Source: Acidobacteriota bacterium
GTDB taxonomy: Bacteria; Acidobacteriota; Terriglobia; Bryobacterales; Bryobacteraceae
Length of the DNA stretch: 33,286 bases
Assembly (NCBI GenBank): GCA_947470805.1
Contig: CANIVU010000099.1
Coordinates: forward strand, 1 to 33,286
Direction of reading: 5' to 3'
This document shows positions 31,744 to 32,527 of the stretch, piece by piece (within the stretch, counting starts at the first letter, position 1; each line of letters starts with the position of its first letter). The position numbers and the translations under genes were made by a program. Below the pieces are notes generated by a model. It ran no database searches. It was not told the DNA's origin and saw nothing but the letters and a program-made list of their open reading frames with translations.

Positions 31744-32487
31744 TTACGGCCTATCGGCAACAATCGTGACATCGATCCGCGGCTTTCGCTGATTCGGGAC
31801 AGGAAGATTCTTTTCAAAACGCGGCTCGCCCTTGGCAGTGGAAGGCCCCTCCTCCTTGATCGAAATCGCGGCAGCGTCTACCGAGAGCCGGACTGAGGGC
31901 ATCCGCCGGGGAACGACAGTAAGGTAAGACTGGCCGTCCGTCTCTGGTCGAGTCGCGTCCAGCGGTATAGGAACGGTGCGCCCTGGCGCAAATAGGCTGG
32001 CCCGAACCAGTCGCGACTCCAATTGGCCTGGACGGCTTGCACCGCGTTCCCGAAGCAATCCATTCGGGTCCTTCAAGCGAACGGTGACTAATGCGCCTTC
32101 TTCCATTTGAAGCGTCAACGGACCCGAAGACACGCCACGATTGACTACGATGGACGGGGCTGTATCGGGACCGAGACCGAAGCAAGGATCCGCGAGGAGC
32201 AATCGATGACGCGCTTGGCCGCATAGCACGTAACTTCCGTCCGGTACGTCAGGAATTGCGAACGTACCGGTTGGCCCGGAATCAACAGTCGGACTTGTCC
32301 AGAATGTCGGCTTGATTCGAACGGCTCTCACGCGAATATTCGCAATGGTTTTTCCGTCCGGCGCAAGAACGGTACCAGCTATTCTGGCCAGTTTAGCCGA
32401 ACCATCAGGCTGGGCAAGCAGCCCACAGGAGGTAATCAGAGAGAGAGAGAGAGAGAGAGAGAGAGAGAGAGAGAGAGAGAGAGACAT
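31744..32487 (-). CDS. Exported carboxypeptidase-regulatory-like domain protein with a CT-repeat-encoded signal peptide
   Basis: 247 residues. After the ATG come 23 CT dinucleotides that encode Ser-Leu eight times; with the following ITSCGLLAQ this makes a hydrophobic export signal without the usual Lys/Arg, possibly a lipoprotein signal (I-T-S-C). Residues ~33-95 fit a carboxypeptidase-regulatory-like beta-sandwich (ARIAGTVLAPDGKTIANIRV, GPTGTFAIPDVPDGSYVLCG). The rest is beta-rich. An in-frame TGA lies six codons before the ATG, so no earlier start exists in this frame. Gain or loss of one repeat unit would shift the frame. First gene of the three-gene operon, so its frame could also affect downstream genes by polarity. 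Function of the mature protein unknown. Confidence 0.78.
   Translation of the reverse strand: MSLSLSLSLSLSLSLSLITSCGLLAQPDGSAKLARIAGTVLAPDGKTIANIRVRAVRIKPTFWTSPTVDSGPTGTFAIPDVPDGSYVLCGQARHRLLLADPCFGLGPDTAPSIVVNRGVSSGPLTLQMEEGALVTVRLKDPNGLLRERGASRPGQLESRLVRASLFAPGRTVPIPLDATRPETDGQSYLTVVPRRMPSVRLSVDAAAISIKEEGPSTAKGEPRFEKNLPVPNQRKPRIDVTIVADRP
32439..32484. repeat. Dinucleotide microsatellite (GA)23
   Basis: Twenty-three uninterrupted GA units on the plus strand (CT on the coding strand), with a flanking A at 32438 extending the pattern to 47 bases. It lies directly behind the start codon of the minus-strand gene. This is far above the length expected by chance in this G+C-rich sequence, and such tracts are prone to slippage. 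Confidence 0.97.
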
Positions 32488-32498
32488 TCGGAGAAACG

Positions 32499-32527
32499 AG
32501 AATCACATGACATTGCGACAACGTCAA
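32499..32527 (-). promoter_or_regulatory. Candidate promoter of the repeat-controlled operon
   Basis: On the minus strand TTGACG (32527-32522), a 17-base spacer and GATTCT (32504-32499). The predicted start point is within a few bases of the ATG, so the transcript would have little or no leader, as at several other genes here. Confidence 0.5.

Follow-up and report, generated by a model that had tools for sequence, protein, structure and literature searches.

Can a run of CT repeats lying directly behind a start codon act as a genetic switch in a bacterium of the phylum Acidobacteriota? This question is raised by a stretch of 33,286 nucleotides from a member of the family Bryobacteraceae (GenBank assembly GCA_947470805.1, contig CANIVU010000099.1, positions 1 to 33,286; hereafter the window), in which an uninterrupted 47-nt (TC)23T tract (32484-32438) begins right after the minus-strand ATG at 32487-32485. 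Comparison of this locus with others in the family and the phylum makes it fairly likely that the tract is a translational contingency locus, at which slippage would turn the gene ON and OFF. The main support for this interpretation is comparative.

A pure CT tract within an open reading frame

On the plus strand, positions 32438-32484 read (AG)23.5 with 100% purity, and Tandem Repeats Finder (TRF) gave this tract a score of 94, the top score among 19 rows for the window. Dinucleotide shuffling predicted 0.01 CT runs of 12 nt in the window, compared with the 18 overlapping matches observed, all of which belong to this tract. The tract codes for (Ser-Leu)n and lies in frame within the 5′ coding region of a 247-codon open reading frame (ORF; 31744..32487, minus strand, stop ending at 31744), the presumed switchable gene, and the assembled allele is therefore ON. 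The product begins with M(SL)8 followed by ITSCGLLAQPDG, the longer stretch being read as M(SL)8-ITSCGLLAQPDGS. The original prediction of an ATG with 23 CT units encoding (Ser-Leu)8 was borne out, with the correction that the 23 full units are followed by one T and that the eighth Leu codon (CTG) borrows its G from the sequence behind the tract. The range first assigned to the element, 32438..32527, holds both tract and ATG but reaches a further 40 nt beyond the start codon on its upstream side.

The tract had also been taken for the hydrophobic core of an export signal. This is plausible, with a best 12-residue Kyte-Doolittle mean of 1.94 for the signal-like N-terminus, and the product is probably exported, but there is no charged n-region. 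Here and below, signal peptides, Shine-Dalgarno sites and lipoprotein signals were all assigned by eye. A weakly CarboxypepD_reg-like stretch behind this N-terminus scored 26.0 bits against PF13620 (E 1.2e-5), under the curated cut-off of 32.3. Pfam and NCBIfam scans of the protein (P0001) gave no match to the Hop family, and a structure predicted from two sequences was unusable (predicted local distance difference test score, pLDDT, of 28.8).

Since the repeat unit is 2 nt long and not a multiple of three, changes of one or two units shift the frame. In the mechanism that we propose, slipped-strand mispairing at replication would add or remove CT units; a change of one or two units would shift the downstream codons out of the frame of ATG 32487, so that translation from it stops early, and cells of one clone would then differ in making and exporting the 247-aa protein, giving mixed populations at this locus. 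A gain or loss of one unit would end translation from ATG 32487 after 17 or 26 codons. The ON/OFF switching first proposed did not take account of starts further upstream that come into frame in the other phases (see below). A change of three units would keep the frame and alter only the length of the Ser-Leu core, as was first predicted.

The tract stands out within its own genome of 8,706,545 bases, where it is the sole CT tract of at least 10 units and by far the longest; at a threshold of 6 units, one other appeared (C52:41238, 6.0 units, in the middle of an ORF). Searches of the same genome for poly-C/G tracts of at least 10 nt gave 16 matches, covered by 15 stretches. At one of these (G000 C56:16316-16326, locus L190), an ATG that opens a hydrophobic N-terminus is followed some 50 nt later by (G)10. 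The body of at least 391 codons behind the run is in a different frame from that ATG; this may be the genome's second frameshift switch, or else the result of an indel error. The remaining tracts that were inspected look, by eye, untranslated or placed in chance frames, and were rejected as gene-head switches.

Homologues of the 247-aa protein (E<=1e-8) comprised 15 matches in 11 of 237 genomes of the family. In a sister species (G014, JAEUQC010000099.1, a Bryobacterales metagenome-assembled genome of the Acidobacteriota), the tract gene and the two genes behind it are found in the same order, the orthologue of the 247-aa protein shows 79-81% identity, and the position of the tract is occupied by ATG, (AC)6.5, T and (CT)6.5, in frame. 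Comparison of the two bodies over 225 codons gave nonsynonymous (dN) and synonymous (dS) divergences of 0.097 and 0.553, a ratio of 0.18 (0.22 for the next gene); the body of the 247-codon gene is under purifying selection.

Repeats at gene heads in other Acidobacteriota genomes

CT tracts of at least 8 units were collected from the 237 family genomes by two pattern searches, which yielded 17 tracts (6 and 11). A tract was counted as standing at a gene head if an ATG lay at most 27 nt upstream, at least 200 codons were open behind it and the frame was closed within 140 nt upstream. Read in the CT sense, 7 of the 17 tracts stood at gene heads, and read in the AG sense, 1 of 17. The same rule held at 1,086 of 39,107 random positions (2.8%), drawn from 109 kb of the window and nine loci, a pool that includes the surroundings of some tracts; binomial probabilities against this background were 2e-7 for 7/17 and 3e-6 for 8/34. 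Four others of the 17 had a nearby ATG without a long body and count as misses (L036, with ATG at -6 and a body of 50 codons; L034; L043; L045).

The seven CT-sense cases are the window, two loci in G179, and one each in G145, G163, G242 and G143, all with N-termini that look hydrophobic or signal-like by eye; the AG-sense tract, in G081, lies behind a good Shine-Dalgarno sequence and an ATG. At L037, an AG tract codes for Arg-Glu, and at L040, L044 and L046 the tract is placed before an ordinary-looking hydrophobic core (by eye). The two tract-bearing proteins of G179 are paralogues (45%), while G145 and G143 encode proteins that are homologous to each other (39%) and weakly hydrolase-like. 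Judged from sequence, the bodies behind gene-head tracts are not one family, and Pfam gave no above-cut-off match for those scanned. MutS was present in all six genomes tested.

In a phylum sample of 396 genomes, ATG within 22 nt of (CT)8.5 was matched in 9 genomes; beyond the window and G283, none of the matches inspected was judged a gene head, L072 and L073 being doubtful. By eye, L067 was rejected as the middle of a membrane-protein gene, and L069, L071, L075 and L088 were likewise set aside. L072 has an in-frame ATG at -20 in front of a 163-codon low-complexity frame. L073 would pass the numerical rule (ATG at -20, at least 492 codons), and its frame looks antisense; it was rejected together with L074. 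These two loci (L073, G649 C60; L074, G444 C1), from a pair of genomes in a single genus, carry (CT)21 and (CT)23 at matching positions, apparently away from a gene head.

G283 belongs to the same class as the window genome and to a different family. It holds five CT gene-head loci, on contigs C15 (where the start is unclear), C28, C29, C37 and C54. Two paralogues carry poly-C instead of CT: 13 C behind a Shine-Dalgarno-ATG on C19, and 8 C near the start on C62. Further poly-C runs lie near the starts of exported-protein-like genes on C80, at a contig edge, and C82. The runs at these four loci (C19, C62, C80 and C82; L140, L139, L201 and L202) span 8-13 C; one lies behind Shine-Dalgarno-ATG-CCCG out of frame, and that of C82 is in frame. 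When the C54 protein was used as a query, all five of the G283 matches listed (C54, C28, C15, C62 and C19) carried a repeat at the head. The C54 family was found in 36 of 200 genomes and shows distant homology to the two G179 proteins (27%, E 8e-22). A set of 16 more C54-family stretches, overlapping in part with the 30 loci considered below, contained 12 without a repeat and 4 with one, namely three from G283 and G469 C111 with (CT)15.

To examine reading frames, 14 gene-head loci were compiled; in 13 of them an ATG precedes the tract by no more than 50 nt (G283 C15 has none). Two of the 13 are in frame (the window and G283 C54) and 11 are out of frame, with bodies that are still open over 91 codons (cut by the locus end) to 716 codons, and to 767 with longer loci. 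Under random phase, with one third expected in frame, two or fewer of 13 has a probability of 0.14, and a held frame would give 13 of 13. In 10 of the 11 out-of-frame loci no ATG, GTG or TTG lies in frame within 50 nt upstream, the exception being G283 C37 (TTG at -11).

The closest view of a change in unit number comes from G283 C54 and C28 (L097 and L098). The 32 nt before and the 51 nt behind the tract are identical, with 5 differences in the 87 nt before it, and the tracts differ by 8 nt, or four CT units; C54 is in frame and C28 is out. With equal flanks, this difference shows a change of unit number accompanied by a change of frame for the C54/C28 pair. The bodies share only 58% identity, a pattern which suggests that the repeat-bearing 5′ module was copied between G283 paralogues, possibly by gene conversion of the signal region. 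These data incline us, if only slightly, to the broader view that Acidobacteriota not known as pathogens may rely on a contingency system that is general and has not been described before, in which CT, AG or poly-C tracts stand directly behind the starts of genes for exported proteins. In some species there would be several per genome (G283 has five CT loci and a number of poly-C loci, with five or more belonging to the same paralogous family), and the 5′ module would be copied between diverged paralogues such as C54 and C28.

Candidate explanations for the tract

Several observations weigh against a switch at the window locus. By eye, no Shine-Dalgarno-like sequence is present in the 16 nt before ATG 32487, unlike several comparison loci, which seem to have one. 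At the tract length of the assembly, this ATG (32485..32487, minus strand) is the sole ATG, GTG or TTG that shares the frame of the body, but the other two frames contain ATG 32513, GTG 32506, TTG 32521 and TTG 32527 (32504..32527, minus strand), and so each phase of the tract has an open in-frame start upstream (ATG 32487; ATG 32513; GTG 32506 or the TTGs). The OFF state may thus be leaky or yield another N-terminus. In the sister species a further ATG lies upstream in the same frame and supplies a charged n-region (MRLSNFR); the window counterpart, ATG 32508, runs directly into TGA, and the ancestral start may therefore be lost. Both the window and the sister allele are in frame, a state that simple constraint would likewise produce. 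The repeat that was looked for at the same place in orthologues is matched by the compound repeat of the sister species, but 13 other homologues have no dinucleotide run of at least 5 units at the head. They include that of G011 (33% identity), with the ordinary start MRIYFAFLLISAATAFPQ and no repeat, and among the remaining 12 are one (GC)4 and one in-frame (C)9. Similarly, of 30 C54-family loci inspected, one per genome, 29 lack a head repeat, the exception being C54 itself. The 14 loci were hand-picked as gene-head cases, partly as homologues of one family, and 2:11 is therefore not an unbiased ratio. Finally, the tract length in the window represents a single assembled allele, and one genome per species was compared.

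The in-frame state of the window and sister alleles is what a passive microsatellite would show, in which slippage alters the length of a tolerant Leu/Ser-rich signal core, the frame is held and nothing is switched. A CT tract codes only for Ser and Leu, and signal-peptide cores tolerate changes in length. We consider this explanation unlikely, as a held frame predicts in-frame loci, yet 11 of the 13 are out of frame with open bodies. The tracts of L040, L044 and L046, which by eye precede a hydrophobic core of ordinary appearance, the Arg-Glu coding of L037 and the poly-C of the two G283 paralogues also argue against it. A start selector, in which each phase would bring another upstream start into frame and produce three N-termini of differing export efficiency, would make use of the open starts found in all three phases and of the GGGAG lying 9 nt before TTG 32527 (by eye). 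It appears improbable, because the other starts have no clear ribosome-binding site and may be due to chance, and because all but one of the 11 out-of-frame comparison loci lack an in-frame start in the 50 nt before the tract. An assembly or sequencing artefact, or a decaying gene with a run-away microsatellite, could be suspected because stutter occurs at short-read tracts, the contig end is 0.8 kb away and the start codon has a poor context. We give this very little credence, given that an independently assembled sister species has a dinucleotide repeat at the site, that 47 nt fits within a short read and that the body is under purifying selection. A contingency locus is the explanation that we prefer; the purity and place of the window tract, the dinucleotide repeat at this site in the sister species, the gene-head tracts, the C54/C28 pair and the presence of MutS in the genomes tested speak for it, but the in-frame state of both alleles at the window site does not.

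Surrounding genes and relation to known switches

The next gene (28620..31727, minus strand) begins 16 nt past the stop of the 247-codon ORF, has its own GGAAAGAG-like ribosome-binding-like site (by eye) and encodes a 1035-aa protein with a signal-like N-terminus and a right-handed beta-helix (PF13229, 47.5 bits). A third gene (26122..28596, minus strand) encodes a probable lipoprotein (MIQGRSILLALVPLLSAC..., start picked by eye) with sub-threshold, propeller-like Sortilin-Vps10/BNR matches; homology between this protein and the G283 family was not found. A sigma-70 scan found no minus-strand site near the 247-codon gene. Switching of the first gene may also affect these two.

The three-gene cassette is bracketed by direct repeats at 25697-25970 and 32636-32908, 6.94 kb apart and 84-90% identical in three blocks. 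Within them begins a repeated gene (MITPEEKAKIARENGAKSK...) that seems to be truncated in the left copy and had no match in Pfam and NCBIfam scans; the region has 22 matches in the genome. The final 149 bases of the window (33138-33286) recur without a difference at C27:80295-80443 of the same genome, probably as an assembly-graph overlap in a repeated gene. In the sister species (L029 7846-9363), the same cassette adjoins a tyrosine recombinase (PF00589) and a plasmid pRiA4b ORF-3-like gene (PF07929), and may therefore be mobile.

The window tract would most likely be a contingency locus that is new in its lineage and known in its mechanism. In the lic-type genes of Haemophilus influenzae, which are lipopolysaccharide genes with tetranucleotide repeats, several start codons precede the repeat. 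The window tract is likewise preceded by starts in different frames, but this is a dinucleotide tract in a signal-like N-terminus. Neisseria opa genes occur as several paralogues per genome. According to passages of PMC3960869, they carry a coding CTCTT repeat in the leader peptide, whose slippage switches the frame. The position of a coding repeat in a signal-like or leader region is shared, whereas the opa unit is a pentanucleotide and the repeats described here are dinucleotide CT, or poly-C in some G283 paralogues. In the Helicobacter pylori genes for the Hop outer-membrane proteins (oipA/hopH, hopZ, sabA and babA), the number of CT units shifts the frame, as described in PMC10564699 and PMC3960876, and in oipA the CT count alone did not separate ON from OFF (PMC10564699). 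The Hop genes resemble the window locus in this use of a CT repeat, but their proteins are unrelated and belong to another phylum, the window tract has 23 units, and switching is established there and proposed here.

Contingency loci had been called unusual in soil Acidobacteria. By title and abstract, together with passages of PMC3711429 and PMC4060949, none of the open-licence papers listed deals with phase variation or contingency loci in Acidobacteriota, which is weak evidence of absence, and gene-head tracts are indeed rare (8 such tracts spread over 7 of the 237 family genomes, with G283 and G469 adding cases from beyond the family), but they recur from genome to genome. Long simple sequence repeats are strongly associated with reliance on a eukaryotic host, according to passages of PMC4060949, and a 2025 review expects gaps in the knowledge of phase variation, for example in ocean and soil, to be filled (PMC11868660). 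This kind of switch is best known from pathogens. If a multi-locus system does operate in Acidobacteriota, it would mean that stochastic switching of exported proteins is selected outside hosts too, where phages, predators or changing substrates may be the selective agents. G283, the window and the related tracts offer concrete loci at which switching outside hosts can be tested.
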